Shown: positions 12,321 to 28,586 of the stretch, one piece after another
How the letters are laid out: every line of letters begins with the position of its first letter
Position numbering within the stretch: the stretch's first letter is position 1
NCBI GenBank assembly: GCA_001404055.1
Contig: CXTY01000039.1
Location: forward strand, 186,001 to 250,000
Source: Roseibium album
GTDB taxonomy: Bacteria > Pseudomonadota > Alphaproteobacteria > Rhizobiales > Stappiaceae
Direction of reading: 5' to 3'
Length of the DNA: 64,000 nt
Notes under the pieces: model-generated
Told to the model about the DNA's origin: nothing
The model's database searches: none
What the model saw: the letters and a program-made list of their open reading frames with translations, nothing else
Position numbers and translations under genes: made by a program

Positions 12321-12331
12321 GAGAACCTCCA

Positions 12332-12358
12332 AAACATACCATGTAGTATGGTATGTTT
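12332..12358. promoter_or_regulatory. Large perfect palindrome, probable TetR operator
   Basis: Arms AAACATACCAT (12332-12342) and ATGGTATGTTT (12348-12358) are exact inverted repeats around GTAGT. The site lies just upstream of the ribosome site of the membrane protein/TetR operon and would block its promoter or early elongation. Confidence 0.8.
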
Positions 12359-12439
12359 ATCTCGTGGACAAATCTGTTCCAATGCGACTTGCCGTCACAT
12401 CAGTTTTCTCAGATCTACGTTGGTCAACAATCAACTGAA

Positions 12440-12486
12440 TTGACACTCTGGAAAGCCAGTGATAGCGCTATTCAAAGCGCTTTGAA
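12440..12486 (+). promoter_or_regulatory. Candidate promoter and LacI-type operator for the thuA operon
   Basis: TTGACA at 12440-12445 is followed by palindromes ATAGCGCTAT (12462-12471) and TTCAAAGCGCTTTGAA (12471-12486). The second has the central CG and AAAGCGCTTT core usual for LacI-family repressor sites. No LacI gene is present nearby. Confidence 0.55.
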
Positions 12487-12539
12487 TTTTCTTTCGAAAA
12501 ACGCGTTTCCTGTCAGGTTTTTCATTTGGGGGAGGCTTT

Positions 12540-13325
12540 ATGCCGATCAGAACAGTGGTTTGGGGTGAAAATGTCCACGAGCAGCACAACAAGATTGTTG
12601 CTGATACCTACCCCAATGGCATGCATCAGTGCATTGCCGACACCTTGAACACCGATGCTGAGATCTCGGCGACCACTGCGACCCTTCAAGAACCCGAGCA
12701 TGGCCTGACAGAAAAGCGTCTTTCTGAAACGGACGTTCTCATCTGGTGGGGACATGCGGCACATGGCGACGTATCCGACGAAGTTGTCGAGCGGGTGTGC
12801 GATGCGGTCTGGTCCGGCATGGGCATGATGTTTCTGCACTCAGCCCATTTCGCCAAACCTTTCAAGCGGCTCATGGGCAGCCCCTGCAATCTCACATGGC
12901 GCGAAGCTGGTGAACGGGAACGGCTTTGGGTGACCAGCCGCAATCACCCCATCACAAAGGGACTGCCTGACAATTTCGAGCTGGAGATGGAAGAAATGTA
13001 CGGCGAACCATTCGGCGTACCCGAACCGCTTGAAACGGTTTTCATCAGCTGGTTTCAGGGAGGCGAGGTTTTCCGGTCCGGACTGACCTACAAGCGCGGC
13101 GCAGGAAACATCTTTTATTTTCGGCCCGGGCACGAAACCTATCCGACTTATTATGACGCCAATGTGCAGACCGTTCTGAAAAACGGGGTCAAATGGGCTT
13201 TCAATCCAATGGTACGTGTTTCCGATCCTAACGCAGCGCCAAATGTACCCGTAGAAGCCGCTCCGGAAAAAATTGAGGAACGGGGACCTAAGCTCCATTC
13301 AGAGGGTGAAGACGGTTTCCGCTGA
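12540..13325 (+). CDS. ThuA domain protein (trehalose-utilisation type)
   Basis: A 261-residue ThuA-like protein with a class-I glutamine-amidotransferase-like fold ([41 protein letters not shown]). ThuA/ThuB pairs act in sugar (trehalose, sucrose, maltitol) catabolism in rhizobia. A Gfo/Idh/MocA oxidoreductase follows 73 bases downstream, as in thuAB. A LacI-type operator upstream fits sugar control. GGGGGAGG precedes the ATG. The substrate is inferred by family only. Confidence 0.85.
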
Positions 13326-13398
13326 TCTCACCCGAACACTGGACCCGGGGCGCAAGGCCACGCCAGCCCGCCATTCTTTCCGTTGACGGAGAATTCTT

Positions 13399-14472
13399 AT
13401 GTCATTTGAAAAAGCACCTGTCCGGATATTGATCCTCGGCACGGGCAACATGGCGCGCACCCATGCGGCTGCATACAGGGAAATTTCCGGCGTAAGCGTT
13501 GTTGCAGGGGTTGATCAACGCCCACAAGTCCTTTCCGGTTTTTGCGACGAATTTGACATTCCGCACGGGTTTGCAAGCCTGGAAGAAGCAATCGCCTGGG
13601 GCGAATTTGATGCCGTTTCCAATGTGACCCCGGATGCGGCCCACCATCCGACAACCTTGAAGTTGCTTGAAGCCGGCAAACACGTCCTTTGTGAAAAACC
13701 GCTGGCAACCAACGCGAAAGACGCCGCTGAAATGGCAAACCTGGCGCGCGCCAAAGGCCTGGTCGGCATGGTCAATCTCAGCTACCGCAATGTTGCTGTC
13801 CTGCAAAAGGCAGCACAGCTCGTCGCAGATGGTGCCATTGGGTCTCTCAGACACTTCGAGGCGACATACCTGCAAAGCTGGCTTACTCAGCCAGCCTGGG
13901 GAGACTGGCACACCGAAAGCCAGTGGCTCTGGCGGTTATCCACCAGCCACGGCTCAAAGGGAGTTCTAGGGGATGTCGGCATTCATATCTTCGACTTCGC
14001 AACTTTTGCCGCAGGGAGCCCGATCAGCGAACTTTCCTGCCGGTTGAAAACTTTCAAAAAAGCCGACGGCGACCAAATAGGTGAATATCCCCTTGATGCT
14101 AACGACAGTTTCACGCTGCAGGCTGAACTGGAAAATGGTGCCCTTGGCACCATCAGCGCCACCCGTTTCGCCTCCGGTCACCTGAACGATCTTCGTCTGA
14201 GACTTTACGGTGACAAGGGCGGGTTGGAAGTCCTGTTTGAAAAGCAGATGGAAAGTTTGCGAATTTGCCGGGATCCGGATTTGAAAGAGGCACATTGGAC
14301 AGATTTGCAGGCGGACCCTGTTCAGAGCGTCTATGAGCGCTTCGTGGCAGCGATCCGCAATGAAGGTCCGGCAGAACCTGACTTTGATCAGGGCAGGCGT
14401 TTGCAAATCGCGCTTGACGCGGCTGAGTCTTCACATCTTGAAAATGGCTGTTTTTTGAAAGTCGCCAACTGA
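13399..14472 (+). CDS. Gfo/Idh/MocA family oxidoreductase (ThuB-like position)
   Basis: NAD(P)-dependent sugar or inositol dehydrogenase, 357 residues. The Rossmann motif GTGNMA is near residue 14, NVTPDAAHHPTT and CEKPLATN (with the conserved Lys) follow, then the C-terminal alpha/beta domain with GDVGIHIFD. It is preceded by GGAG at good spacing, sits in one unit with the ThuA gene, and is followed by a strong terminator. Together they probably oxidise and process a disaccharide-derived ketosugar. Confidence 0.87.
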   Translation: MSFEKAPVRILILGTGNMARTHAAAYREISGVSVVAGVDQRPQVLSGFCDEFDIPHGFASLEEAIAWGEFDAVSNVTPDAAHHPTTLKLLEAGKHVLCEKPLATNAKDAAEMANLARAKGLVGMVNLSYRNVAVLQKAAQLVADGAIGSLRHFEATYLQSWLTQPAWGDWHTESQWLWRLSTSHGSKGVLGDVGIHIFDFATFAAGSPISELSCRLKTFKKADGDQIGEYPLDANDSFTLQAELENGALGTISATRFASGHLNDLRLRLYGDKGGLEVLFEKQMESLRICRDPDLKEAHWTDLQADPVQSVYERFVAAIRNEGPAEPDFDQGRRLQIALDAAESSHLENGCFLKVAN

Positions 14473-14587
14473 CGGGCCAGACCATTTTTTGGCCGAGCTC
14501 CGGCAAGTCTGAAACGGGCTCTGCTGCAAAAATTGGCACCTGCGGCTGAATTGCGGCTGCTAATTTTGTCTGTCGCACTAAACAAAA

Positions 14588-14619
14588 AAACCAGCATTCC
14601 ATTGGAACGCTGGTTTTTT
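14588..14619 (+). terminator. Rho-independent terminator after ThuA/Gfo operon
   Basis: Stem CCAGCATTCC/GGAACGCTGG with one mismatch and a three-base loop, preceded by an A-tract and followed by TTTTTT; it could work in both directions. Confidence 0.85.
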
Positions 14620-15084
14620 GAGCCTCTCGGCTGAAACTGGAGGTACTGTAACCTTCAAGTAACTCGGATCGATGCTGTGATCTGATATTGACTCCGGACG
14701 CGTCTAGGAGACTAGGTTTGACATCCTTCGTCATGTATGCGGCGCAAATCGAACAAAGGTCGAACCCTGACATTCCTCCAACATCGACACCAACGCCAAA
14801 GATCGCACTTTGGATTCGATCAGTTTTTTGACGGTGACAAGAACTCTGCCAGCATCCACGCTGGGCGACCGCATCAACCTCCTCAAATTCCCGCTGGGCT
14901 TGTGCGCGAACGTGGCATGGGTCCACCCTCATTTTTGTGAGGTCGAGAATTCTGCGTTGTGCTTGTCTCTGCAAAAACGAATGATGGCAAGTGCGTTTCT
15001 TGTACTCCTGTAAACTCACTTTTCTTTAACTCCCATAAGTTGTACGTTGCTACAGGGCAGCAAATAACGTGCGGGGCAGGTAAA
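14620..15084. other. Intergenic boundary between chromosome and AT-rich accessory block
   Basis: No gene supported. Several short frames exist on both strands but none has a recognisable domain or ribosome site. Two GTAAC pentamers 11 bases apart (14648 and 14659) recall the repeat pairs at the ends of the mobile element at 18717-28560. Base composition becomes clearly AT-richer from about 15.0 kb. Confidence 0.4.
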
Positions 15085-15303
15085 TTGAAAAGGCATTGGA
15101 TTATTTCTGCGCTTGGCGTCTCCATGCTTGGTGCAGCGCTTTACTTTTCATTCAGAACGCCACCAGGTATCGAAATAAGAGGCACAACAGAAGAAAGTAT
15201 TGCGTTTTATGGCATGATTGCAGCCATCTCTGGAGCTTTGACTGCCTTGTTAGGAATAGTCAAAGAATTGGTTTCTGTTTACAAAGAGAAAATCAAAAAA
15301 TGA
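15085..15303 (+). CDS. Two-TM mini-protein coupled to caspase-like protease
   Basis: A 72-residue protein starting at a TTG (15085). The frame is open upstream to 14959, but that extension is polar and composition-shifted. It has two hydrophobic segments, HWIISALGVSMLGAALYF and FYGMIAAISGALTALLGIV, and a basic C-terminus (VYKEKIKK). Its stop overlaps the ATG of the caspase gene (ATGA at 15300-15303), so the two are translationally coupled. No family recognised; a membrane partner, anchor or effector of the protease is the natural guess. Confidence 0.55.
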   Translation: MKRHWIISALGVSMLGAALYFSFRTPPGIEIRGTTEESIAFYGMIAAISGALTALLGIVKELVSVYKEKIKK

Positions 15304-17351
15304 TCCGAATACTACTTATTGCGATTGTTATTTGTTTTTCGAGCAAAATACACGCGGCTGTGCCGGATTGGATTGTTGATGATCCCGATGTGGAAGGTAT
15401 GTTTGTTGCCGATGTGTTCCCGGGTGAAAGGAACTGGTGGCAAAGGATTCTTATAAAAAATATTTGGCTGCAACGAATTACGGGTGCCACTCCCGATTTT
15501 GAACGCAGTATTGCGATTGTCGTTGGAATTGGTTCGTATGATGATTGGGCTCCACTCAGCGGACCGACAGAAGACGCCAAGAGGATGAGAGCGTTTCTTC
15601 TTAATTCCGAATTTGATGAAGTTTATACGATCACTGATCGAGAAGTGACTCGCAAAAGGATAAATGACCTTATTTCGCATGTTCAATCTCGTTTAAACTA
15701 TAACGGCCGTTTTGTATTCTATTGGTCTGGACATGGAGGACAAACGAACGCAGATAAACCTGAAGGTTTTTTGCCATTATCAAACACTCCAACCGATGGC
15801 ACTGGAACTCGTATAGCCATGCGTGAAATCTACGGTTATGCCGCCGCGGTAAGCGCCAAACACCAATTATTGATACTAGACGCATGTTTTTCAGGGGGGG
15901 TTGTACCTCAAGTAGCTTCGAGTGGGCGCGTGGTAAGCTCACTATCGCAAAAAGTCACCCTTATGCTTACTTCGAGTGCTGAAGATGAATACTCTTACGG
16001 CCAATCGCAAAGTGCGGGGCCTAACGGGTCTGCAGCTGGCGGGTATTTGACAACTGCGTTCCTGAATTCTGTGGGTGCAAATGGTGCCGATAGAATCGCC
16101 GATTTTGATAGAAACGGTTTTGTTACGATGACCGAAGTGCAAAGTTCCGTTCGTAACGAACTCCTCGCTATCTCTGCGGCACAAGCCTTCGAGCAAGACC
16201 CTCGGCTTAGACCCATTGGACCAGGCAAAGGGGATTTCTTTTTTCTATCTCCTCGAACTTGGAAGTCACCTGAAAATAGGCCGAACAGTCGAGGTCTCTC
16301 CGTTCGATTTGGTAATATTGCCGAGCCCAAAGGTCCACAAGAAATCGCCACAGCTCCTGTCGAAGCAAAACCCACGCTCGCGCCTTACTTAATGGATAGT
16401 TTTTCTAATTTGCTTCGAAAGCCCGGAGAAGAGGCAATAGCGATTAGGCCCACTGCCAGCCAATTTCGACTGTCTCGCAACGAACTACTTAGGGAGGAGA
16501 TTGCTGGTGCTGCTGCTTTTGTTGAGGCTGAGATCATCAAATTAGCAATAGATAGGGTGTTGAAAATACTTGATCAAGATAGTTCTTCAGGCCGATACAT
16601 AAGTCCTCCTATCGTAAAAGAAGTACATTTGTATGCCCCAAATAAAGATGAATATTTGGATTCGTGCAGAGACTGGTCTGATTTTCTTCAATTTGCACAA
16701 ACAGCGCATGAAATGATGATGGTTTACAAAACCATTCGATCACGAATGTTTGGTGCGAGTAATGAAGAGTTAATTACCCAATGGGGCGATGGAAAGTTCC
16801 CTCCTGAATCAGGAATTGTTTTGGATGATGGTCACGATTTTAACAATAGGAATGATATCTCTTTAGATTCGTTTTTAAATTCTGGTGTGCTTGAAAGAAA
16901 CTATGAGTTATTCGCCAACGGTTTGGATCAACTTGAACCAATTTGGCAGTGGCGAATCGCAAAGGCTGCTAGTCTATTGCTTGCCTATGAAGCTATTAAT
17001 GGCCCAAATGAAGTAGTTAGCCCTTCGGGAGAAAAGATAACAAGAAATCCTGATTTGTCTAATACGGACAATCCTTTTGGTTGCAAGGGCGGCTCTGACT
17101 ATAACATCGAATTCTCCTTCATGCTTGGTGAAGTCCAAACGTACGCAAGTATATCTTACGAAAAAGATTCAAAGGACAAGTACCAATATCAACAATTCAA
17201 TGACGCGATCCTTGAATTTTGGTCCAGACGGCAGACAAGTGGAACAAGTAAAAAATTGCGCGAATTGTTGATAAATATTGCAAATGACTTCTCAGGAACT
17301 GTCGCAAATTCTTGGGATCTGCGTGAGATGGCATTAAACGAGAACGAATAG
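15300..17351 (+). CDS. Exported caspase-like (peptidase C14) protein
   Basis: A 683-residue protein with a signal peptide (MIRILLIAIVICFSSKIHA) followed by a caspase/metacaspase domain at about residues 68-240: AIVVGIGSYDDW, catalytic His145 in YWSGHGG and catalytic Cys196 in LILDACFSGG. The C-terminal 400 residues are mostly helical without a recognised domain. The start at 15300 gives a clean signal peptide; the longer frame from 15096 shows no such start. Codon use and low GC differ from the flanking chromosome, suggesting transfer. With the mini-protein upstream and an AbiJ-like gene downstream it forms an accessory, possibly defensive, block; substrate and trigger are unknown. Confidence 0.8.
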   Translation: MIRILLIAIVICFSSKIHAAVPDWIVDDPDVEGMFVADVFPGERNWWQRILIKNIWLQRITGATPDFERSIAIVVGIGSYDDWAPLSGPTEDAKRMRAFLLNSEFDEVYTITDREVTRKRINDLISHVQSRLNYNGRFVFYWSGHGGQTNADKPEGFLPLSNTPTDGTGTRIAMREIYGYAAAVSAKHQLLILDACFSGGVVPQVASSGRVVSSLSQKVTLMLTSSAEDEYSYGQSQSAGPNGSAAGGYLTTAFLNSVGANGADRIADFDRNGFVTMTEVQSSVRNELLAISAAQAFEQDPRLRPIGPGKGDFFFLSPRTWKSPENRPNSRGLSVRFGNIAEPKGPQEIATAPVEAKPTLAPYLMDSFSNLLRKPGEEAIAIRPTASQFRLSRNELLREEIAGAAAFVEAEIIKLAIDRVLKILDQDSSSGRYISPPIVKEVHLYAPNKDEYLDSCRDWSDFLQFAQTAHEMMMVYKTIRSRMFGASNEELITQWGDGKFPPESGIVLDDGHDFNNRNDISLDSFLNSGVLERNYELFANGLDQLEPIWQWRIAKAASLLLAYEAINGPNEVVSPSGEKITRNPDLSNTDNPFGCKGGSDYNIEFSFMLGEVQTYASISYEKDSKDKYQYQQFNDAILEFWSRRQTSGTSKKLRELLINIANDFSGTVANSWDLREMALNENE

Positions 17352-17659
17352 ATCCGTTCCAGTCTTCTCAGTGCTGTTTCGTAGGTTACCAACGAGACCC
17401 TTACCGTCTCGATATCGTCACTTTATCTGTCCGTTTGAGTATACTTTTACGAACGGAAGCTACGAGCTTCAGCTTCGCAGGCCTCACACAATCGATAGGG
17501 GGGAGGAGGGGGGTGCCCCTTGCTCATATATGCATATCGAAGCTCAAAGTTTTCTCGGTAAAAATAAGCCGGTTGGGGAAACTGAGACGCGTTCGTGTTG
17601 GTTGTACACCCGCACACTGATATGCCCAAAGGAACAATGGTTTTCGATTGGTAGTAGAT
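17352..17659. other. Intergenic region upstream of AbiJ-like gene
   Basis: Contains a G-rich run near 17498-17516 and should carry the promoter of the AbiJ-like gene; no protein-coding frame or clear regulatory repeat is supported. Confidence 0.4.
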
Positions 17660-18541
17660 ATGATGCAGGACAATGACCCGTGGGAAGACCGCAAGAGTTT
17701 GACGTTCGAACAAGCAGAGGGAGCAGCATCATTACCACAACAACTGCAACTCAAAGAGGTCTCCTCCAAACTCCGGGCTGTGTTGTGGCGTATCGTTCAC
17801 GATAGTCTAAGTCGGCACCGCAAATTCGCGATAAATGCAAGACGCCCACATCTAATTGATCCATGGGACAGAATACTTCGATCGGCACACACTTTTCGCG
17901 ATCACCGCATGATTGACGAGTACGAAGAACACGCAGATACGCAGATCAGCAAGGTAAAACAGATTTTTTCAAATGGAGACTATCTGGAAATCTTCGGGTG
18001 GCTTCAATACGTTTTAAGAAACAACCCGCCACATGGATTTGCCAACGCAATTGACACCGCATTGAACTATTGCCATGCCGCTTACCGCGTCTTTGACCAC
18101 ACAACAATTGTGCCATTCAGCTCCGAAGAAGAATTGCACTCAATAGAAAAAGCCTTTGCAGAATTGGCAACCAAAGAGTTCCAAGGAGCTCGTGCTCACC
18201 TGAAGAAGTCCTTAAGTCTACTTAGCGAAGGAAATAATGCCGATAACATCAGGGAAAGCATTCACGCAGTAGAATCCATAGCGCGCACCCTAGACAATTC
18301 TGGCAAATTCTCGCGCGCACTGGCATGCATCTCAAACAAAACGAATATCCATCGCTCGATGGAAGCGGGGTTTAAGAGCCTTTACGGATACACCAGCGAT
18401 GAAAATGGGATTCGGCATCCGCTTCTTGATGATGATGAGGCATCGGTAGACGAGACGGACGCCCTCTTCATGATTGGTGCGTGTGCCTCTTTCGTCACCT
18501 ATCTCATAAACAAATCGAGAGCTGCTGGTTTGTTAGACTAG
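17660..18541 (+). CDS. AbiJ-NTD4/HEPN-type abortive infection protein
   Basis: About 293 residues. The N-terminal part (LRAVLWRIVHDSLSRHRKF) resembles the AbiJ-NTD4 domain, and the C-terminal half (ESIHAVESIARTL, then LYGYTSDENGIRHPLLD and a final helix with FVTYLINK) matches the HEPN-like C-terminus common in AbiJ-family proteins, which act as RNases or toxins that stop phage-infected cells. The start is one of two adjacent ATGs (17660/17663); a TTG at 17648 is also in frame. It lies just outside the left end of the mobile element, next to the caspase module. Function as phage defence is inferred from family. Confidence 0.75.
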   Translation: MMQDNDPWEDRKSLTFEQAEGAASLPQQLQLKEVSSKLRAVLWRIVHDSLSRHRKFAINARRPHLIDPWDRILRSAHTFRDHRMIDEYEEHADTQISKVKQIFSNGDYLEIFGWLQYVLRNNPPHGFANAIDTALNYCHAAYRVFDHTTIVPFSSEEELHSIEKAFAELATKEFQGARAHLKKSLSLLSEGNNADNIRESIHAVESIARTLDNSGKFSRALACISNKTNIHRSMEAGFKSLYGYTSDENGIRHPLLDDDEASVDETDALFMIGACASFVTYLINKSRAAGLLD

Positions 18542-18584
18542 CTGGGACGCGTGGAACATATGCGGGTGGTCCTACGAGGCCGTA

Positions 18585-18644
18585 GGCCGATGTAGCTCAG
18601 GGGTAGCTAGAGAGCAGAGCTCTCGCTCCCTTGCCAGTTGGGAA
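18585..18644 (+). pseudogene. tRNA-Gly-like 5' half remnant
   Basis: Carries the D-arm sequence GTAGCTCAGGGGTAG found in the intact tRNA-Gly at 28512 and, after an inserted GAGAGC-AGA-GCTCTC hairpin (18610-18624), an anticodon-arm-like TTGCCA. No T-arm or acceptor 3' strand follows. It is on the opposite strand to the intact gene, 72 bases from attL. Not a functional tRNA. Confidence 0.55.
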
Positions 18645-18681
18645 CTGCTATTGTGAACAAAAGAGTTTTATGTGAACGAAA

Positions 18682-18709: not shown

Positions 18710-18716
18710 CTAAAAT

Positions 18717-18766
18717 TTGGAGCGGGCGATGGGATTCGAACCCACGACCCCAACCTTGGCAAGGTT
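18717..18766. repeat. attL: 50-bp copy of the tRNA-Gly 3' half
   Basis: Identical over 50 bases to 28511-28560, comprising the tRNA 3' end, T-arm and 3' side of the anticodon arm (minus strand). Identity stops at 18767, where the element's own sequence begins. Confidence 0.93.
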
Positions 18767-18860
18767 CCAAATCCAGCAAAACAGAGCTTTTCACGGCTAG
18801 TGATCCATTGATTTCATTTACTTTTTTCATACCTCGAGCTAACTCGAGCTTTAGGTTTAA

Positions 18861-18881
18861 AGTTACTCGGGAAGTTACTCG
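18861..18881 (+). repeat. Tandem AGTTACTCG repeats at element left end
   Basis: AGTTACTCG occurs at 18861-18869 and 18873-18881, immediately before the integrase start. Similar AAGTTACC pairs lie at the right end (28436). They may be arm-type integrase or excisionase sites, or operator sites of int. Confidence 0.5.
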
Positions 18882-18883
18882 TC

Positions 18884-19957
18884 ATGACCAGAAGCAGCAT
18901 CACACTCACGGAAGCATGGATGGACCGTACCCAGAAAGCGGGCCTCCACTGGTGTAAACAGAATCCTGGACTCGGGTGCCGCGTGGCTAAGTCCGGCAGC
19001 AAGAGTTGGATATTCCAGCGCAGCGGGGGTAACCGGCTGACAATCGGTCGCTGGCCCGAACTCGGGTTGCGGGCTGCCAGAGACCGCGCGGCGGACCTCG
19101 CCCAACGGGGAAGAAGCCAAAGGGCGGCCACACTGCGCGAGGCGCTGGACCTCTGGGCGGAACGCTGCATTCTCAATGGCGGTTCGGACGGAACGGTAGA
19201 AAACCGGCGAATGCAGTTCGAGAAGCATGTGGGCGACTGGATGGACAAGCCTCTCACGTCCATCACACATGCTGGTCTTGTCCGAATGCAAATGCGCGTC
19301 GGCGAGAAGTCAAAACACGCTGCCAACGACATGCTCCGCCATCTGGGCACTGTGTTCCGAACGGCCACGTCCGATCCATGGCCCGGTGCCAGCATCCGTC
19401 CGCTGAAGATTACGGAACCGCCGAAGCGGCGCACCATCGGCGACCCTGCTGCGTGGTGGCAGGAGGTGCAGACGGTCAGTTCTCCCATAATCAGGGCATA
19501 CTGGCAGTTCGTCGCTGTCACCGGCCTGCGGGAAAACGATGCGAAGACAGCCCGCCGCTCCCTTCTCAAGGACGGCTGGCTGCACCTGCCCGAGCCAAAG
19601 GGGGGCAAGTCGCGTGCGTTCGACCTGCCGCTATCCACCTGGGCTCTGGACGCGAGCCGCGACCTGCCCAAGGAGGCTGACTGGATCTTCCCCGGAGGGG
19701 TAGCCGGGGAGCACATTGTAAATCCCAAGCCGCACTCCATCCGACACCTGTGCTCAGAACACGCTCTGCGCCACCACTGGAAGTACGTCGCAGAGATCGA
19801 GGCAGGCTGTCCTTTCCCGATTGTGCAACGACTGTTGAACCATCGTGACAAGCGCGGTGTCACCGACATATACGGTGAGAGGAATATCCCAGACGATGTG
19901 GTCGCAGACTGGGCCCAGCGCATCGCCGACAAGGTCGCGGAAAGAATGGGGCTTTAG
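18884..19957 (+). CDS. int: Tyrosine integrase of the element
   Basis: A 357-residue phage-type integrase that recombines attP with the tRNA-Gly attB. Catalytic residues are visible: Arg216 in VTGLREND, His284 and Arg287 in HSIRH, His320 in LLNHRDKRGVTDIYG with Tyr330. The N-terminal arm-binding region is followed by a SAM-like core-binding domain (about residues 83-165). The gene begins 118 bases from attL, the usual position. Expression probably depends on the AT-poor leader carrying AGTTACTCG repeats. Confidence 0.92.
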   Translation: MTRSSITLTEAWMDRTQKAGLHWCKQNPGLGCRVAKSGSKSWIFQRSGGNRLTIGRWPELGLRAARDRAADLAQRGRSQRAATLREALDLWAERCILNGGSDGTVENRRMQFEKHVGDWMDKPLTSITHAGLVRMQMRVGEKSKHAANDMLRHLGTVFRTATSDPWPGASIRPLKITEPPKRRTIGDPAAWWQEVQTVSSPIIRAYWQFVAVTGLRENDAKTARRSLLKDGWLHLPEPKGGKSRAFDLPLSTWALDASRDLPKEADWIFPGGVAGEHIVNPKPHSIRHLCSEHALRHHWKYVAEIEAGCPFPIVQRLLNHRDKRGVTDIYGERNIPDDVVADWAQRIADKVAERMGL

Positions 19958-20164
19958 TTCGCTGCAGTTTTTGGCTATATTTAGGGCTTAAACACGCATT
20001 GACGGTCCCGTTTCCACATAATGGGACCGGGGCCACGTACCTGCCAGTCAAACGTCGCCCCGAGCAGCGCGCACCCCTTGGCGAAGGGGCTGACGGGGTG
20101 ATCCCGTCGCAAAGTGGCACCTGCACCGTCTCCTAAAAGCCCCGCGAGGGGTTGGAGACGTATT

Positions 20165-20443
20165 GTGCAAACTCAGCTAGACGAAAACATCCGGACGATC
20201 ATCCGCGAGGAGCTGACCAAACTCCTACCCACAGTCACCCAGACTTCCGATCCTGACCAGTTGCTGACTACCGAGGAGGTGGCGCAGCTCACAACGCTGT
20301 CTGTCGGTTACTTTGAAATCGGCCGAAGCAACGGCAACAAGAACCTTCCGCCATACATTCGTGTCGGTCGCCGCATCCTGTATCGGCGAGGCGACATCAT
20401 GAGCTGGCTCGAGAAGCGTCGGAGGGGGACTGGCCATGCATAA
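20165..20443 (+). CDS. AlpA/MerR-like small HTH DNA-binding protein
   Basis: A 92-residue protein with a HTH_17/AlpA-type domain: LLTTEEVAQLTTLSVGYFE, then IRVGRRILYRRGDIMSWLEKRR. Such proteins act as excisionases or regulators of integrase and replication genes in satellites and islands. The GTG at 20165 is preferred (GGAG seven bases upstream) over a GTG at 20114. Its end overlaps the primase start by eight bases. Confidence 0.8.
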   Translation: MQTQLDENIRTIIREELTKLLPTVTQTSDPDQLLTTEEVAQLTTLSVGYFEIGRSNGNKNLPPYIRVGRRILYRRGDIMSWLEKRRRGTGHA

Positions 20444-22748
20444 GGAAACCCCCGTCCCACTGGCAGAGAACGGGGGCTCAGTATCAAATGCAAACGGACC
20501 TGCATTCCAAGGCAACGATACTGGCCCTGCTCCAGAAGTAAACGATGCAGTTAATTTTCTGAAGTGGTTCCGTCCCGAAGGCCCGTGGGTATTAACCGCG
20601 ATCGTGCCGGGCGGACGGATTACCACCACCACATTTCGAGTGGACCAAGAGAAGCTGCTGCGCGATTGGTTATCAGCTCGCGCCGGTCACGAGAATATCT
20701 ATTTCCAGGTCAACAGCACTGGTAAGAAGAACGTTACGCGGAAGACCCGCAAGTCAGACATAGTCGCCGCCGAGTGGTTGCATGTGGATATCGATCCCAC
20801 AGGCGACATCACATCCTTCGACATAGAGCGGAAGCGGATACTAAAGAAACTTCGGGAACACTCCCCTCCGCCGTCCGTGATAGTCGACTCCGGCGGAGGA
20901 TTTCAAGCCTTCTGGAGACTGAGCGAGCCGGTTGAAGTAGATAACCCCTCGGAAGAGGCGTGGGCCGACTTCGAGCGATACAACAGACAGGTGGAAGCAG
21001 ACCTCGGCGGCGACCATTGCCACAACGTGGACCGCATCATGCGCCTCCCGGGTACGATCAATGTGCCGAACAAAAAGAAGCGCGCCAAGGGCCGCGAGCC
21101 AGCCCAGGCCAGGGTGGTGTCCCAGCAGGACCAGACATTCGAGCTGTCGGTGTTCAGCCAGGCCCCTCTGCTGGACGGGGGCGAGGTGGGAGACGTGGGA
21201 CGTCTCCGCGTCCAGATATCCGACAACCTGCCCCGGCTGTCAGAGATCGACGAGCTTGACCAGAACGGCGAGGTGCCACAGCACGTGAAGATGCTGTGCG
21301 TGCAAGGCCTGGACCCGGATAAACCGGGCCGCTACTCGTCGCGCTCGGAGTGCTTCTGGTACGTGGTCTGCGAGCTGGTCCGCTGCAAGATCCCCGACGA
21401 GATCATTGCCTCCGTGATGCTGGACCCAGACTTCCTCATCTCTGGACACGTGCTGGACCAGCGGAACCCGAACGGCTACATGGTCCGACAGCTGCAGCGG
21501 GCTCACGAGTGCGCCAACGCAGAAAATGGGACAGGTCCGCAATGGGACCGCGTGACTAAAGACGGACAGCCACTCCCATCGTTCGGCAACGCCCAAGAGG
21601 CGCTGCGCCACCTGGAAGTTAAGATCTGGCATGACGCGTTCTGCGACCGCGAGATGGTTTGTGGTCACGCGGTGCAGGACTACGAAGGCGTCGCCACAGA
21701 CAAGGCCCTGATGCTGCTTCGGGAGAAGACACGCCAACGGTGGAGTTTCGATCCCGGCAAAGAACACATTCGCGACGCGTTCTGTCTGGTCGCGCTTGAA
21801 AACCGGCACGACCCAGTGGTCGATATGCTGGACAACCTATCTTGGGACGGTCAAGAGCGGCTGGAAACATGGATGACGCGCGCCTGCGGTGTGCCAGACA
21901 CGCCATATGCGCGTGAGGTTGGAAAACTTATGCTTCGGGCGATGTGCCTCCGGGCAAGAACCCCCGGTGTCAAATTCGACCACATGGTAATTCTCGAAGG
22001 TGCGCAGGGCGCGGGCAAGTCCCTGTCTCTCAATATCTTGGCCGGCGAATGGTTTTCCGACGCCGGGCTCTTCTCTACGTCGGGCGACAGGGATCGTGCT
22101 GAGTTGCTTCAAGGAAACTGGATAAACGAGGTCGCAGAACTTGATGGTTTGTCGAAGCGGGATGTCACAGAGGTCAAGAGGTTCATAACGCAGACACATG
22201 ACGAGTACCGCGCGGCATACGCACACAGAAAGGAACGACGAGCCCGCCGCGGAATTCTTGTCGGCACCACGAACGACGACCAGTGGAATCGCGATCCGAC
22301 TGGGGCAAGAAGGTTCCTTCCCGTGCGCTGTGGCACGTTCGACCTGGACTGGCTGCGCGCCAACCGAGATCAGTTGCTAGCCGAGGCGGACACCGTGGAG
22401 AGTACCTCTCTGATACTGCCTGCGTCTGTCTGGGAAGCGGCAACAACAGAGCAAGCGGCGCGCCGTGCTGATCACTCCTGGGATGAATTTCTCGCAGAGA
22501 TGCAGCCGGAGGAACGGTTTGCTGGCAAGGATCGTGCCTCGACGAAATACATCATAGAACAGGTTTTGAAATTATCTTCTGGTGAAATTGCCCGACGGGA
22601 CACTGCCAGACTGCTGAGGGAGCGATTGCGCCATCTGGGCTGGTCGGGGCCAAAGCTGATTGCCTTCAAGGGCAAACGGCGAGCAAAGGGCTATTGGCGA
22701 GAGACCACAGAACCTGACCAGTTCGCCCCGCCAGAACCGCCGTTTTAA
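20436..22748 (+). CDS. AEP primase fused to VapE-like helicase domain
   Basis: A 770-residue replication protein. The N-terminal half resembles RepB-like archaeo-eukaryotic primases: the catalytic HVDIDP (Asp118/Asp120) and HNVDRIMRLPGTINVPNKKK region are present. The C-terminal half is a VirE/VapE P-loop ATPase with Walker A GAQGAGKS at residues 522-529, followed by NEVAELDGLSKRD and the sensor segment GTTNDDQWNRDPTGARRF. It probably initiates element replication at the adjacent repeat cluster. PICIs and P4-like satellites use analogous primase-helicases. Confidence 0.88.
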   Translation: MHKETPVPLAENGGSVSNANGPAFQGNDTGPAPEVNDAVNFLKWFRPEGPWVLTAIVPGGRITTTTFRVDQEKLLRDWLSARAGHENIYFQVNSTGKKNVTRKTRKSDIVAAEWLHVDIDPTGDITSFDIERKRILKKLREHSPPPSVIVDSGGGFQAFWRLSEPVEVDNPSEEAWADFERYNRQVEADLGGDHCHNVDRIMRLPGTINVPNKKKRAKGREPAQARVVSQQDQTFELSVFSQAPLLDGGEVGDVGRLRVQISDNLPRLSEIDELDQNGEVPQHVKMLCVQGLDPDKPGRYSSRSECFWYVVCELVRCKIPDEIIASVMLDPDFLISGHVLDQRNPNGYMVRQLQRAHECANAENGTGPQWDRVTKDGQPLPSFGNAQEALRHLEVKIWHDAFCDREMVCGHAVQDYEGVATDKALMLLREKTRQRWSFDPGKEHIRDAFCLVALENRHDPVVDMLDNLSWDGQERLETWMTRACGVPDTPYAREVGKLMLRAMCLRARTPGVKFDHMVILEGAQGAGKSLSLNILAGEWFSDAGLFSTSGDRDRAELLQGNWINEVAELDGLSKRDVTEVKRFITQTHDEYRAAYAHRKERRARRGILVGTTNDDQWNRDPTGARRFLPVRCGTFDLDWLRANRDQLLAEADTVESTSLILPASVWEAATTEQAARRADHSWDEFLAEMQPEERFAGKDRASTKYIIEQVLKLSSGEIARRDTARLLRERLRHLGWSGPKLIAFKGKRRAKGYWRETTEPDQFAPPEPPF

Positions 22749-23010
22749 GTAACCGCGGGTTACCGTAGACAGCCGTCCGGCCAGAGCCCAAAGAGAAGTC
22801 CCTAGAAGGAAATTGACTTGGTAACCGGTCGAGTAACCTCCCGGTAACCGGTCTGTAACCCTGGAAAATCGAGTAAATTAAAACAGGTAACCGAAGTAAC
22901 TACTCGAGCTTAATTATCCTTCCAAAGAAGCACAGGGGAGTGGCGCACCCCGCCTTTCCGGGCTGTCCCCTCAGTAGGGCTATCTGCGGTTACTTACGTT
23001 ACCCGGTTAC
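22749..23010. repeat. GTAAC/GTTAC repeat cluster, probable replication origin
   Basis: At least eleven GTAAC or GTTAC pentamers fall here (22749, 22759, 22821, 22833, 22844, 22855, 22887, 22896, 22989, 22998, 23006), including the palindrome GTAACCGCGGGTTAC and two copies of GGTAACCGGTC. An AT-rich patch lies at 22870-22920. The position just after the primase-helicase gene matches satellite origins. Confidence 0.6.
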
Positions 23011-23274
23011 TAGTGGTCGGTAATTCGCGAAGAATTTTCCGCGAGTGTTCCCTGACTGCTCGAGTTAATTTTTTCCTGTTCCGGCGGATTACTCCCGTCA
23101 AAAAAGAGCTCTAACCCTGACGAGGTTGAAACTTCGGCCCGAAAGACAAGCAACAACAGGTGCTTATGCCGCAAAGTAACTTTGCAAATAACTTCCGTCT
23201 TCCCGGCGGCCTCCTTGGTCGGGACAGTGAAGCTCCCTGTGTCCTCAGGTCTGTACCATGGGAGCCGCATCACC

Positions 23275-23709
23275 GTGACTAATCCTGCAGTTATTCGAAA
23301 CGAAGGCGGCCATACCCGCAGAATCGGAGACCGAGGTCTAAAGGTGGTGGAACAAATGGCGTCTCAGGGCTGCTCCGAAACGAGCATTGCCAAGACCCTA
23401 CGCATTGCAACGTCCACTTTTCGAGAGATCAAAAAACGCCAACCTGAAGTCATGGAAGCGCTTGAACGCGGCTACAGTAAAATGGAGGATGCCCTCGTAA
23501 GTCGACTTTTTTGTACGGCCATGGGCGAAAGTAAAGGTGCTGTGACAGCCGCAATTTTCCTCCTGAAAGCAAGGCGCGGATACGAAGGCACCAAGACCCC
23601 CGCGCACATCACCATCAACGACAATCGCCAACAAACAATCCAATTGCCAAGCAAGCTGGATATGGAAGAGTACCGTCGCCGATATCTGCCGGAAGCAAGC
23701 GATGCTTGA
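23275..23709 (+). CDS. terS: Terminase small subunit-like protein
   Basis: About 144 residues (175 if begun at 23182). A helix-turn-helix region (VVEQMASQGCSETSIAKTLRIATSTFREI) leads into a helical segment and a C-terminal tail ending MEEYRRRYL, as in small terminases that recognise the packaging site. It overlaps the large terminase start by eight bases, the classic terS-terL order. GTG at 23275 follows GGGAG. It presumably marks the element's own DNA for packaging. Confidence 0.72.
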   Translation: MTNPAVIRNEGGHTRRIGDRGLKVVEQMASQGCSETSIAKTLRIATSTFREIKKRQPEVMEALERGYSKMEDALVSRLFCTAMGESKGAVTAAIFLLKARRGYEGTKTPAHITINDNRQQTIQLPSKLDMEEYRRRYLPEASDA

Positions 23710-25099
23710 AGGAATATCACCATTCCAACAATCTGTCTTACAGGCACCAGAAGCTGTAAATCTCGCGCTACTCGGCGCACGCGGTGGAGGTAAGACAACA
23801 GCCGCCGTTATGCTGGCAGCCGAACACCTAAAAGATTATGGCACCGCCGCCAGCGTCCTCATCGTGCGGCGCACGCTGCGCGCGCTGTCCGACTTTGAAG
23901 ACGAGTTACTACATCTTGTCACAACTGGTTACTCCGGCGGTAGTCATGTCTATAATCGCGCCGAGAAGATCCTGCGCTGGAACGGCGGCACCATCACGAT
24001 GGCAGCCATCGAACGCACTGGCGATTACGATAAGCTTCAGGGAAAAAATTTCACGCTCTTGATCGTGGAAGAAGTGACGCAGTACCCGAGCGAGAAGGTG
24101 TTACGCCTTCTCCGGTCGAACCTCCGCGCGCCAGAAGGTGTACCGACCCGAGTAGTTTACTTGGGCAATCCCGGTGGCCCGCTGCATGGCCGTATCTTCG
24201 AGCGTCACATCCGTGACCGTTGCGATCATTCCACATACGACCTGCCTGTAGACGGTACTGAAGAGGCCGAGACATGGATCACGATCAAGTCCGGTCCAGC
24301 CGACAATCCCTTCATAAATCAACAGGCGTATATCCGCCGCCTCCGCGAGGCCTGTCACGGAGATCCTGTCCGGCTACAACAATGGCTTTTCGGTGACTGG
24401 ACCCGTGGAGAGGGCCTGATGTTTCCAGCTTTCGAGCCTGACATCCACGTCCTCTCTGGTCTTCCTATCATGAACGGCAACAACTTTCGTGCCGTCGGCG
24501 CAATCGACTGGGGAATTTCCTCCCCGAGTGTTGCTTTGATAGGTGGTGTCGCGAAACGACCAATCGCTCTTAGCAGAAGCCAAATCGCACCAAGAGATTC
24601 TGTTGTGATCTGGGACGAGACCACGGACGCAATCTTCGGCGGCGACACGTTGAACAGCTCGTCAGAGTGGCCGCCGGACAGACTGGCAGAACGGTTCGCC
24701 AACACCTGTGCAAACCATGGCATTCACAGGCCGTCCATCGTTGTGGATTCGGCTCGAGGTCTACAGGGCGACACCGTCATCGGCTTAGTCCGTGGCACAG
24801 GTCAGTTCTGGAACGTTGCACTACCTAAGAAAGGTCGCCGGGCAGAAGGCTGGGCAGACGTCAATTCTCGACTCCTCGCGACAAAGGAACGCGACTCATC
24901 CCGTCCACACCTCTACGTAAGCGACCGCTGCCTATATTTGCTGGCAACACTGCCAAACGCGGTACGAGACGAGCGTGACCCCGACGACTGGGCCGACACT
25001 CCCGTCTGCCCTGATCACGGCGGAGACGCCCTCCGCTACTTGCTGGCGGAGGCTCGCTTACAGCCCGCCCGCTTCACCCCCTCTCTTGGCATTTGTTGA
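23702..25099 (+). CDS. terL: Terminase large subunit (complete)
   Basis: A 465-residue packaging motor. The ATPase domain has Walker A GARGGGKT (25-32) and Walker B LLIVEEV (119-125); the RNase H-like nuclease keeps its acidic residues: Asp269 in AIDWG, Asp349 in VVDSA and Asp442 in GGDALRY. The linker contains DNPFINQQAYIRRLREA and QWLFGDW, typical of TerL. Nothing suggests decay. A full TerL in an element with no portal or capsid genes implies docking on a helper phage portal. Confidence 0.88.
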   Translation: MLEGISPFQQSVLQAPEAVNLALLGARGGGKTTAAVMLAAEHLKDYGTAASVLIVRRTLRALSDFEDELLHLVTTGYSGGSHVYNRAEKILRWNGGTITMAAIERTGDYDKLQGKNFTLLIVEEVTQYPSEKVLRLLRSNLRAPEGVPTRVVYLGNPGGPLHGRIFERHIRDRCDHSTYDLPVDGTEEAETWITIKSGPADNPFINQQAYIRRLREACHGDPVRLQQWLFGDWTRGEGLMFPAFEPDIHVLSGLPIMNGNNFRAVGAIDWGISSPSVALIGGVAKRPIALSRSQIAPRDSVVIWDETTDAIFGGDTLNSSSEWPPDRLAERFANTCANHGIHRPSIVVDSARGLQGDTVIGLVRGTGQFWNVALPKKGRRAEGWADVNSRLLATKERDSSRPHLYVSDRCLYLLATLPNAVRDERDPDDWADTPVCPDHGGDALRYLLAEARLQPARFTPSLGIC

Positions 25100-25113
25100 A
25101 GAAGGAGAAATTA

Positions 25114-25824
25114 ATGTCTGCCTCGCCACTTGATCAAGTAATCAGCGCTAGAAACGCTGCCAAGAAAAACCCGCACCCTGACCCGGTGACGGCGGCGCGC
25201 CAAAAGCAACGCGCTGTTCCAGTTTGTCCGCTAGATATTTCTCCCGAGGCTATAATGGGCGATGTGGTAGCGCTGGAAGGCGCGCGCAATGCGATGAAAA
25301 CCGTGAGGGATTGTTGGAACGCAATCCGAGAGGCGGCCATCGAGACCGAGGACGTGCGCAAGCTTGCTAAGGACGGGACGCGCCTAACTGAACGTGCAAC
25401 CATGGCTGTCGACGCCGCCAGAGGTCGACTGGAAGACGCCGAGAAGGCCCTTGAACAACAAATTCAGCAACGTGTCACGGTGCCAGTTGCGCCGCATCTC
25501 CAGAGCGAAATCCGAGCCGCTGTTCACGGACGCGACGATATAACCTTGCTAGTTAGGAACGAGCCCGCCGTTGCTTCGGCTATCCTGTCTGCACCCGCTT
25601 TCCTTTCGGGTTTGGATTCAAAGAAGCAAGACAGTCTGCGAAACATCGCGATCCAGTCCCATGCAAAAGAAGAGATGGCAAGACTTAAACAAGTCCGCCG
25701 CGCCAAAAATCAAGTCGACAGAGCAGGCGGCATGGTACTGACTAAACTGGATACCAAAGTCGCTAAATGGGCACAAGAAGAGCCCGGTGCTGTCACTCGC
25801 ATGCGGAACATGGCCAATGCATAA
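25114..25824 (+). CDS. Unknown helical protein following terminase
   Basis: 236 residues from an ATG preceded by GAAGGAG. Predicted mainly helical with a likely coiled coil (about residues 75-125, LEDAEKALEQQIQQ), Lys/Arg-rich at both ends. I do not recognise a family. The place directly after terL is where phages carry portal or scaffold genes, but neither length nor composition matches a portal. It may act in packaging or in redirecting helper capsid assembly; this is inference. Confidence 0.6.
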   Translation: MSASPLDQVISARNAAKKNPHPDPVTAARQKQRAVPVCPLDISPEAIMGDVVALEGARNAMKTVRDCWNAIREAAIETEDVRKLAKDGTRLTERATMAVDAARGRLEDAEKALEQQIQQRVTVPVAPHLQSEIRAAVHGRDDITLLVRNEPAVASAILSAPAFLSGLDSKKQDSLRNIAIQSHAKEEMARLKQVRRAKNQVDRAGGMVLTKLDTKVAKWAQEEPGAVTRMRNMANA

Positions 25825-25987
25825 TTTTCGTAGAGACAAACCTTTCATAGCGTGGCTAACACAAAAACAATCGCGTTTGCGAACAGAAAGGCAAATTCAA
25901 TATTTTGAACGCCGAAAGGTTGCCGAGCCTGCAAGTGCCGCTGAATTCGACGCAGAGATAGCAATCTTACAGGATAGATTCAGATGA
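25817..25987 (+). CDS. Small basic protein of unknown function
   Basis: A 56-residue Arg/Lys-rich protein (MHNFRRDKPFIAWLTQKQ start) beginning inside the last codons of the preceding gene and ending in an ATGA overlap with the next, so it sits in a tightly coupled operon. No family recognised; charge suggests nucleic-acid or protein binding. Confidence 0.5.
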   Translation: MHNFRRDKPFIAWLTQKQSRLRTERQIQYFERRKVAEPASAAEFDAEIAILQDRFR

Positions 25988-26316
25988 CTGACGAAGAATT
26001 TTTACAAGCTGCCAAAGCCAATTTGTCATCGAAAACAATCGCCGCCGCTGTGGCCTGCGCTTCAGCACAAATGGCGTTACCGCACAGAATTACGCCAAGA
26101 GAAGTATCTAAGATAGCAGACGCGCTTGGCGCACCACGCAGTCCAGTCCTAGCCCTTACGGGATGGATCTTTGCGAAGGCGGACAGGCCCAACCGCAGAG
26201 TGTTTTTTGACGTGCTTTGTCCAAAGATGAGCCGACACGAGGCTCGATGGCCAACAGACCGGGAAACGTTGTTCGCACTGGGCATCTGCCGGACGACAAG
26301 TACGCAATTGATGTGA
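25984..26316 (+). CDS. Small unknown protein, coupled
   Basis: 110 residues, ATGA-coupled to the gene before it. An alpha-helical N-terminus (EEFLQAAKANLSSKTIAAAVACASAQMALP) and a possible HTH-like ITPREVSKIADALGAPRS segment are visible. No family recognised. It ends the conserved-looking replication/packaging block; the cargo cassette starts 134 bases later. Confidence 0.55.
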   Translation: MTDEEFLQAAKANLSSKTIAAAVACASAQMALPHRITPREVSKIADALGAPRSPVLALTGWIFAKADRPNRRVFFDVLCPKMSRHEARWPTDRETLFALGICRTTSTQLM

Positions 26317-26450
26317 TTACTATCCTGACCTGAGATCCACAATCGATGCAAGTATTGATTGCCGAATCAGGTTGTGTGATGTTCGTTTCGCTACTTTTTG
26401 CAATGAAACAGGCCAAGCACGGCCGCTCGCCATAGACGGACGAACATCAG

Positions 26451-27491
26451 ATGCTGGACAAAACCGCGCCCGACGAGGCCCAAATCGACACACTTTTTGA
26501 AGTACTCCAAAACCAAACCACGTTGGAAAATGTTCGAGGAATGCTTCGCGACAAAGGTTTGCCTCACTCTGCTTCAAGTTGGCACGCAATGTTCGAAAGG
26601 CGCCTCCAACCTGGCCTTAAAAACGGAAAAATCGAAGTAGAAGAAATAGTTCAGCTAATTAGTGAATCCGAAGAACACGGCCACAAACATGTACTGTTCT
26701 TTCAATACGACCTCGATAGACTCCATGAATTAGAACACCTTTTTGACTCAGCGCAGGTCGAAAAGTGGGCAAAAAGTAAGCAATTTCCAGGAGCAGGTGA
26801 CTATGTGTTTGAAGCGTATCCCGACAAGCCCACGGTCACGGAAGTAAGAGTTGGTGACGGCGCCACTGGAGGCGCATTTGTTCTGAAGACTGCACAAACT
26901 CTCAAACGAAAGAGACCGGCAGAGCGCAAACAAATCGATGGAGTGTGGTTCTGGGTCGCAAATGAAGTTTCTTACCGCGCAGTCGATGTTTTGAAGGTTC
27001 ATGACAATGGCCTGATAGAGATCAGAGTACATACTCGAAGTGACAACATTTCCTACTCCGGTGCTGCACTTTCCGCTTTAAACATCGTCCATGGACTGTT
27101 TAACACTGCGGCGCTTCCCGAGCTTTCTTTGAAGTCAGTAAAGGTCTTCCTATCTGCCCCCAAGAACAAAGACGAAGTGTCAGAAAATTTTGAGGTTTAC
27201 GAAGCAAACTTCAAAAATGATCAGGGTGACCGAATGCAGTCATCTTCGCTGCAGGATCGCGGAGGCATTCTCTCGTCGAAGGTGATGCCGGAAGTGATCG
27301 ACCAGTTTTCAGATAGCGAACACGATCCGTATTGCGAGCGAGTCCGTGTGTCCTATAAGATGGGTGACGTTAAGAAGATAAACATAATCCTGACAGAGAA
27401 TGCCAACGAGATCATAACTACATCCAATCTATCGCGTGATGAGTATGAAGAAGTTCTCGGCGCTCTTTTGAAGATCCACGAGGCTGAATAA
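26451..27491 (+). CDS. Cargo gene A: unknown 346-residue protein
   Basis: First of three overlapping genes next to attR. An N-terminal helical region (about residues 1-60) is followed by a mixed alpha/beta body with FFQYDLDRLHELEHLF, VWFWVANEVSYRAVDVL and a C-terminal beta-rich part ending in a helix (SRDEYEEVLGALLKIHEAE). No enzyme motif recognised and no membrane segment. TAATG junction with gene B shows coupling. The composition is more AT-rich than the terminase genes, consistent with exchangeable cargo. A sensor or effector role in defence or helper interference is inferred only from position. Confidence 0.6.
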   Translation: MLDKTAPDEAQIDTLFEVLQNQTTLENVRGMLRDKGLPHSASSWHAMFERRLQPGLKNGKIEVEEIVQLISESEEHGHKHVLFFQYDLDRLHELEHLFDSAQVEKWAKSKQFPGAGDYVFEAYPDKPTVTEVRVGDGATGGAFVLKTAQTLKRKRPAERKQIDGVWFWVANEVSYRAVDVLKVHDNGLIEIRVHTRSDNISYSGAALSALNIVHGLFNTAALPELSLKSVKVFLSAPKNKDEVSENFEVYEANFKNDQGDRMQSSSLQDRGGILSSKVMPEVIDQFSDSEHDPYCERVRVSYKMGDVKKINIILTENANEIITTSNLSRDEYEEVLGALLKIHEAE

Positions 27492-27844
27492 TGCCGCATG
27501 TACCCAACCCTGCCGAATGGCAGGGGCGTTTGGACTACGAAGTGCATAAGCTGCAAGATGCTGCTTCGTATCGCGAAGTTACCTACAATCGTCTTAAAGA
27601 GCTTGTAGCGCCTCCGAATGACGTGGACCTGTTAAAAGCAGTGTCTCGAATGATATCGACCGGCCAAATCAGTGTGATTTACCGCGTCATTTCGCCTGTT
27701 ACAAATGCCGCAATCGGTCAATATCCGAGCCCGCTTGAAGTCCCGCGTGAAATGGTGGATGAGAGCACCGGACACCATCTGGACATCGACCCCGTCCAAA
27801 ACGTAGAAACCGTTTACGTTTCAGAGGGTCAAGTTGAGCACTGA
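27491..27844 (+). CDS. Cargo gene B: small unknown protein
   Basis: 117 residues, starting at the last base of gene A's stop. The first 70 residues look winged-helix-like (YNRLKELVAPPNDVDLLKAVSRMISTGQISVIYRVI), the remainder is acidic and likely beta-rich. No family recognised. It could be a regulator or bridging subunit of a three-component complex. Confidence 0.58.
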   Translation: MPHVPNPAEWQGRLDYEVHKLQDAASYREVTYNRLKELVAPPNDVDLLKAVSRMISTGQISVIYRVISPVTNAAIGQYPSPLEVPREMVDESTGHHLDIDPVQNVETVYVSEGQVEH

Positions 27845-28409
27845 ACCAGAACTAGAGACCTGGGAAATCGAGGCGGATTCCACCTTTGAGGAGGTCAGGC
27901 ATCTGGACCGCGATCACCAGCTTCGCATCCTAGATTCAAAATCGAAAGAGGTTCAAGACGACGCTATTCGAACAGCTTTTTTGTTTCGTGTGTTCAATCT
28001 TATCAAGGAGAACGAAAATTCAAGTTCTCCTCCAAAGTCAATTGTCGAGAAAACCTTCGCGCCAGACGGTGCTGCCTTCGTCGCATTCGTCCTTACATTT
28101 CTAGTTTTCTGGTGGGAGTTTGGTGTTCGCTTCCTATACTCCATTTGCATAGCGTTTGGTGTTGCGCTCTTGATTCGTTTCCTTTTCAGGATGTTCGACA
28201 GAAATTTCCTTTTTCGACGACTCTTTCAAATGTGGACGGCAAGTGGCATCGTGCTATTAGTGGCTCCACCTATTTCCGTTCTTCTCGAAACAGCTATCGG
28301 GACCGTGTCGTGGGGTGGCCCGCCAAGTATCCCTGTCATCTCAGTTTGGGCTGTCGGTTTCCTAGTTTCTGCGCCGCTTGCTTATTTGGAATCACGCGAC
28401 GCGAACTGA
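27834..28409 (+). CDS. Cargo gene C: four-TM membrane protein
   Basis: 191 residues from a TTG start inside gene B (11-base overlap), with GAGGG upstream. A soluble, acidic N-terminal domain (1-80) is followed by four hydrophobic segments (near 83-101, 104-122, 134-155, 165-182). Soluble sensor domains plus multi-TM pores are a common effector design in abortive defence systems. No specific family recognised. A terminator hairpin follows. Confidence 0.6.
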   Translation: MSTEPELETWEIEADSTFEEVRHLDRDHQLRILDSKSKEVQDDAIRTAFLFRVFNLIKENENSSSPPKSIVEKTFAPDGAAFVAFVLTFLVFWWEFGVRFLYSICIAFGVALLIRFLFRMFDRNFLFRRLFQMWTASGIVLLVAPPISVLLETAIGTVSWGGPPSIPVISVWAVGFLVSAPLAYLESRDAN

Positions 28410-28435
28410 ACTCTATACAGATGAAGCAGTCTTCG

Positions 28436-28454
28436 AAGTTACCTGGAAGTTACC
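28436..28454 (+). repeat. Tandem AAGTTACC repeats at element right end
   Basis: AAGTTACC at 28436-28443 and 28447-28454, matching in core and spacing the pair at the left end (18861-18881) and sharing GTTAC with the putative origin. Confidence 0.5.
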
Positions 28455-28458
28455 CAAG

Positions 28459-28485
28459 AAAAAAGCCGCCCGAAGGCGACTTTTT
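28459..28485. terminator. Bidirectional terminator at element right end
   Basis: A-tract, stem GCCGCC/GGCGAC region with loop CGAA, then TTTTT. On the + strand it ends the cargo operon; on the minus strand it lies just past the tRNA-Gly 3' end and can replace the original tRNA terminator displaced to 18682. Confidence 0.75.
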
Positions 28486-28510
28486 CAACTCACTGTTTCC
28501 AGATGAGAAA

Positions 28511-28560
28511 TTGGAGCGGGCGATGGGATTCGAACCCACGACCCCAACCTTGGCAAGGTT
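28511..28560. repeat. attR: 50-bp repeat inside the intact tRNA-Gly gene
   Basis: Exact copy of 18717-18766. It supplies the 3' half of the tRNA so that the gene at 28512-28586 remains whole after integration. Confidence 0.93.
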
Positions 28561-28586
28561 GTGCTCTACCCCTGAGCTACGCCCGC
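28512..28586 (-). tRNA. tRNA-Gly (GCC)
   Basis: 75 bases including an encoded CCA. Acceptor stem GCGGGCG/CGCCCGC, D-arm GCTC-AGGGGTA-GAGC, anticodon arm CAACC-TTGCCAA-GGTTG with anticodon GCC, and T-arm containing GGTTCGAATCC. Serves as integration target of the element on its 3' side. Confidence 0.96.

Follow-up and report, generated by a model that had tools for sequence, protein, structure and literature searches.

The element and its insertion site

Within the 64,000-nt stretch of the Roseibium album chromosome analysed here (the window) lies an element of 9.8 kb (18,714–28,560) bounded by direct repeats of 53 nt, which are 98% identical and include 50 exact nt. Together with the intact tRNA-Gly gene at the right end, these repeats delimit the element (Table 1). 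All of its predicted genes stand on the + strand, in the order integrase, HTH_17 protein, RepB-primase/VapE helicase, TerS, TerL, orf6, ORFs of 66 and 110 aa and three cargo ORFs. The first-pass annotation had read much the same content from the letters (att repeats, an integrase, a primase-helicase, terS and a full terL on one strand), and the repeat search and family scans bear this out. With att sites and an integrase, and without a full virion set, the element has the make-up of a phage satellite.

Table 1. Features of the element, in window positions
Feature	Position	Strand	Basis or remark
Left att copy, 53 nt	18714..18766		Repeat search
Tyrosine integrase with N-terminal arm domain	18884..19957	+	Family scans
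HTH_17 excisionase/regulator-like protein	20114..20443	+	Family scans
RepB-type primase and VapE-like helicase, 770 aa	20436..22748	+	Family scans
Gap before terS, 433 nt	22749..23181		Candidate origin/pac region
terS, 175 aa	23182..23709	+	Start listed as TTG; actual start uncertain
terL, 465 aa	23702..25099	+	Overlaps ends of terS and orf6
orf6, ~240 aa	25093..25824	+	Predicted all-helical; after terL in 6/7 elements
Small ORF, 66 aa	25787..25987	+	ORF list; overlaps orf6 end
ORF, 110 aa, no family	25984..26316	+	Family scans and PADLOC
Cargo ORF, 346 aa, no family	26451..27491	+	Family scans and PADLOC
Cargo ORF, 117 aa, no family	27491..27844	+	Family scans and PADLOC
Cargo ORF, 191 aa, no family	27834..28409	+	Family scans and PADLOC; hydrophobic stretches by eye
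Right att copy, 53 nt, within tRNA-Gly 3' part	28508..28560		Repeat search
tRNA-Gly(GCC), integration target, intact	28512..28586	-	tRNA call

The element is a true insertion. Its right flank is matched by all 45 genomes of the genus searched, and the window was compared with 24 loci of genus genomes, with 1.5 kb of the left side examined. At L089, the best flank match of the 24 loci, sequence like that of the window up to 14,635 directly abuts the tRNA; at four loci (L091, L096, L100 and L101) the flank gene of window 13.4–14.5 kb lies within ~0.6 kb of the tRNA, and at four more (L106, L107, L108 and L110) window sequence of 11.1–12.4 kb is found on the left side of the tRNA. At the other 15 loci the 1.5 kb examined gave no further left-flank match outside the tRNA region. 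A search of the 100 other nearest genomes gave no relative of the window TerL at E 1e-3.

The adjoining stretch 14,636–18,674 is probably a second, separate insertion. It holds a caspase-like gene (15096–17351; PDLC02987, 1e-18) and a PDC-S32 defence candidate (17648–18541; 9e-57), and the 5' region of the tRNA-Gly recurs at 18544–18606 in partial inverted copies.

The packaging genes

TerL of the window is of full length, with the ATPase and RNase H-like nuclease halves of a large terminase and their motif residues. K31, E124, D269, D349 and D442, which from knowledge of the motifs we take to be the catalytic positions, are identical in all 21 aligned TerLs. Judged from open frames and conserved motifs, TerS and TerL are an intact DNA-packaging motor. 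The terS/terL and terL/orf6 overlaps amount to a few bases each, as they might in a translationally coupled unit. In the gap upstream of terS only short repeats were seen (exact 11-mers at 22820 and 22843), and no common pac/origin repeat was seen between the replication gene and terS in the four elements compared.

A family of related elements

Scans of genome and viral contigs with the single TerL protein gave no match, but relatives did turn up in searches across the order and the class and with alignment queries. In the order search a TerL match was obtained in 14 of 397 genomes (own included): elements of the type described here occur in the own genome, in G152 and, twice, in G433; five (G136, G337, G128, G198 and G247) have TerLs that fall among the 38 other TerLs of the tree described below, and the weaker matches (G154, G353, G346, G188, G167 and G438) were kept outside the tree. 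The class search gave a TerL match at 1e-30 in seven of 385 genomes (own included), among which G585 and G702 carry such elements and the other four again fall among these 38. In the phylum search (398 genomes) the own genome was the sole match at 1e-50. IMG/VR encodes TerL relatives at 39 loci.

For the tree, 63 TerLs were collected; L059 (379 aa) was dropped for length, and L063 and L065 were left out as partial ORFs. Seven TerLs (window, L020, L021, L022, L074, L038 and L085) form clade A (support 97/89), nested in a clade of 24 rows (100/100) apart from the 38 other TerLs. Two viral contigs are of clade-A type, L038 itself and the fragment L065, the latter judged by similarity, and pattern-based scans of 2.9 million viral contigs yielded for clade A these two only. 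With so few contigs, and a terminal repeat in neither, evidence from the virion side is almost nil.

Besides the window, clade A thus comprises six elements, which share integrase, replication gene, terS and terL. Five of them have both att ends and are spread over four bacterial genomes; one is an IMG/VR contig. The six elements with both ends (window included) lie at tRNA-Gly, Lys, Pro, Pro, Thr and Ser, with end spacings of 9,794–12,701 nt: L020 at tRNA-Lys (9,820 nt), L021 and L022 at tRNA-Pro (11,709 and 12,701 nt), L074 at tRNA-Thr (10,401 nt; repeat of 108 nt at 84%) and L085 at tRNA-Ser (~11.7 kb by a 14-nt repeat). The contig L038 is 10.3 kb long, and no repeats were found in it. L021 and L022 (G433:C24) flank one tRNA-Pro gene, one repeat covering its 3' part and the other its 5' part.

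In all seven elements the terL, integrase, replication and terS frames contain no stop. The TerS proteins are linked by blastp, and the integrases likewise. Among the replication proteins, the pairs that align over their full length are L038 with the window (43%) and L020 with L085 (39%); the replication protein of L022, called from position and pooled hits, matches none of the others at 1e-3. With terS-terL in common and replication genes that differ, the packaging core has been kept while replication genes were exchanged. We conclude that the clade-A elements are a real, recurrent family of which the window element is an intact member.

By inspection and family scans, the cargo beside the distal att differs between elements: L021 carries a type II methyltransferase and restriction enzyme, L038 an OLD/AriA-like ATPase, and PADLOC gave no match for the window cargo or for L074:8311–9594. 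The distal genes are best read as exchangeable cargo, apparently defence-like in part. Three of eight elements scanned, the window not among them, have a small ORF with the zinc-ribbon-like pattern CxRC...C..C downstream of terL (L020:8719–9093, L038:7735–7977 and L085:8529–8822).

The defence-like cargo of L021 and L038 bears on a different use of the motor, in which TerS and TerL would serve interference, blocking or misdirecting phage packaging while the element spreads by other means. Satellites often impair their helper, which also speaks for this possibility. We nevertheless regard it as distinctly improbable, considering that the nuclease and the ATPase positions are both conserved across the clade, that the elements bring genes for their own integration and replication, and that their sizes span a narrow range.

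orf6

A homologue of orf6 directly follows terL in six of the seven clade-A elements, window included. Leave-one-out HMMs recovered each of the six members and L075 at 1e-20 or better; in L085 there was no match, and a 259-aa, unrelated-looking ORF takes the position. L075 (G450, 8123–16477) is an 8.3-kb element at tRNA-Lys that encodes orf6 along with an integrase, HTH and an AAA-type protein (by eye); family HMMs detected no terS or terL in it, and orf6 is therefore not strictly tied to an own motor. A 164-aa ORF of L075 matches phrog_9747, a family of unknown function. Among the 385 class genomes orf6 was found in the own genome, G585 and G450, and weakly in G606 (2e-6) and G564 (9e-5), in which family HMMs found no element. 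Elsewhere, the orf6 HMM clearly matches two contigs (L042 and L039) of clade B, the sister TerL clade.

A structure search with orf6 gave no convincing fold match, and tblastn found nothing in phages (query L074) or plasmids (query window); nor did orf6 match the scaffold of sister-clade elements. Because it stands behind terL and persists in the family, we suggest that orf6 is a candidate procapsid- or portal-facing factor.

Virion genes and the helper

The first-pass annotation had reported no portal, capsid, tail or lysis gene, and family scans and PHROGs likewise named no such family for the ten window proteins scanned or the pooled window ORFs. For the window element and its relatives, we pooled ORFs of at least 75 aa within the att bounds, passing over those that lay more than half within integrase, terL or, except in L022 and L075, replication genes. 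Of 200 ORFs listed, 16 were left out (six terS, seven HTH-gene ORFs, the L075 AAA protein, the L038 ATPase and one wrong-frame L022 ORF). No portal, capsid, protease or tail family was named by PHROGs in the remaining 184 ORFs of seven elements (six of clade A and L075; L085 and L065 stood outside the pools, and the ORFs of L085 were read by eye for virion genes). The sole pool match to a 'virion structural protein' family is L020:8343–8726 (127 aa; phrog_21641, 5e-6). The unassigned cargo ORFs of the window could hide a virion part.

The earlier reading of the element as a satellite therefore survives the search for structural genes in related copies (none named in the five relatives scanned, with the single L020 match; L085 read by eye), and where broken terL or primase frames might have told against it, these are open in the window and six relatives.

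Within its own genome the window TerL is the only Terminase_6N, and no match to the HK97-type capsid family PF05065 or to the portal families PF04860 and PF13264 was found. Judged from the absence of these three families, it is unlikely that a helper prophage or a gene transfer agent resides in the genome. Since neither a second Terminase_6N nor a capsid or portal of the tested families is present, the helper is probably external to the host genome.

The sister TerL clade and alternative readings

In clade B, of which many members are seen as partial contigs, virion genes do occur. L033 (IMG/VR, 1–9839; 47-nt terminal repeat) encodes terS and terL together with an integrase, HTH, replication genes, a scaffold and a major capsid; neither a portal nor a tail gene was recognized there (three proteins scanned, the rest by eye), and no orf6 by HMM. 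Of four terS/terL contigs, three of them with an integrase, L036 and L039 carry a neck protein (neck1), L039 a tail assembly protein as well, and L043 and L035 tape measures. In L030, L031 and L045 a likely portal gene, identified by eye and mutually similar by tblastn, lies downstream of terL, and we therefore rejected the notion of clade B as satellite-only. Given single virion genes in some contigs and likely portals in others, the clade contains satellite-like elements and probably phages.

These findings bear on the possibility that the window element is itself a capsid-forming satellite of the cf-PICI kind, with a capsid or portal, in orf6 or a cargo ORF, too diverged to be recognized. 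Satellites with TerS and TerL that are described in the excerpted text of PMC10690885 carry their own capsid set. The sister element L033 has scaffold and capsid beside terS and terL at 9.8 kb, and the window ORFs of 110, 346, 117 and 191 aa without family, like the L020 match, leave room for such a gene. Against this, among genes without a known role only orf6 recurs (6/7), and its predicted structure is all-helical (pLDDT 83), a fold unlike that of the HK97 shell or portal; the cargo differs between elements, and the 184 ORFs yielded no capsid, portal or protease family. We consider this reading unlikely.

A deletion-derived, decaying prophage would also account for the phage-like order integrase–replication–terS–terL, and the likely portals downstream of terL in L030, L031 and L045 (by eye) also speak for it. 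However, the same reduced set with open frames is found in all six elements whose two ends lie at tRNAs (two of the elements at one tRNA-Pro), and a lone deletion accounts neither for the orf6 they have in common nor for the supported TerL clade. Such an origin appears to us very improbable indeed.

A proposed model for packaging by the element

We suggest that the window element belongs to a family of tRNA-integrated satellites which use a motor of their own to package their DNA into helper procapsids, and we give this reading a probability of about 0.72. The packaging step, the helper and the function of orf6 are inferred from sequence. On infection by a helper phage, the integrase and the HTH protein would excise the element, which the primase-helicase would then replicate. 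TerS would select the element's own pac site, and the element TerL would dock on the helper portal and fill helper procapsids, the helper supplying shell, portal, tail and lysis. In this process orf6, encoded directly behind TerL, would be the likeliest candidate for fitting the motor to the foreign procapsid or for redirecting procapsid assembly.

More tentatively, it is possible, though we hold it doubtful, that these elements are a separate satellite class imposing its own motor on foreign procapsids, with a TerL lineage that evolved apart from known phages and orf6 as an adaptor to helper portals or procapsid assembly. If so, sister elements with a lone neck protein, tape measure or capsid would be other points on a modular spectrum of particle piracy.

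Comparison with known systems

We found no description of a capsid-less satellite with its own TerS-TerL in the part of the satellite literature covered, which is incomplete and thus weak evidence of novelty. Classical PICIs and SaPIs are small, site-integrated elements with an integrase, a replication gene and often terS, and they use the helper's large subunit; P4-like satellites, of ~11 kb, have an integrase, an AlpA-like/HTH regulator, a primase-helicase and the late genes psu/sid/delta. The window element resembles the former in its small size, site-specific integration, integrase, replication gene and terS but has its own full TerL, and it resembles the latter in integrase, HTH regulator, primase-helicase and size but encodes both TerS and TerL; among the names of its Pfam and PHROG hits none is psu, sid or delta. 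Both the use of TerS by PICIs and the packaging of P4 DNA by the P2 terminase are described in the excerpted text of PMC10690885.

According to the same excerpts, cf-PICIs have their own TerS and TerL, major capsid, protease, portal, connectors and HNH (PMC10690885). The element shares the two terminase subunits with them, whereas the remaining components were not recognized in it. The Streptomyces satellites MulchRoom and MiniFlayer likewise have their own small and large terminase; they are described there as having a scaffold, a portal and a major capsid while lacking an obvious replicase (PMC10690885), whereas in our element those virion genes were not recognized and a replication gene is present. 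AH14b of Pseudomonas sp. ANT_H14 is, like the element, an integrated satellite with its own primase and no full virion set; its packing in helper capsids is described, and its authors report no identifiable terminase gene (PMC4936722), while the element has terminase genes. The Wolbachia plasmid pWALBA1, according to excerpts of PMC9560607, is not a phage either and, like our element, combines a helicase with a TerL-like gene; it is plasmid-like and carries in addition a portal and a putative coat protein. L033-type elements are close in integrase, HTH, replication genes, terS, terL and a size of 9.8 kb, and differ in their scaffold and major capsid and in that orf6 was not found there by HMM; from a tailed prophage the element differs in having no recognized portal, capsid or tail module.

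In the sources covered, satellites achieve packaging either by redirecting the motor of the helper, as P4 and PICIs do, or by bringing a complete head of their own, as cf-PICIs do. If our reading is right, an own motor with a borrowed shell would be a middle state between the two and would make the specificity of terminase for portal and procapsid directly testable. Finally, terS-terL-orf6 without a portal would offer a searchable signature for satellites that finders based on capsid or portal could miss.
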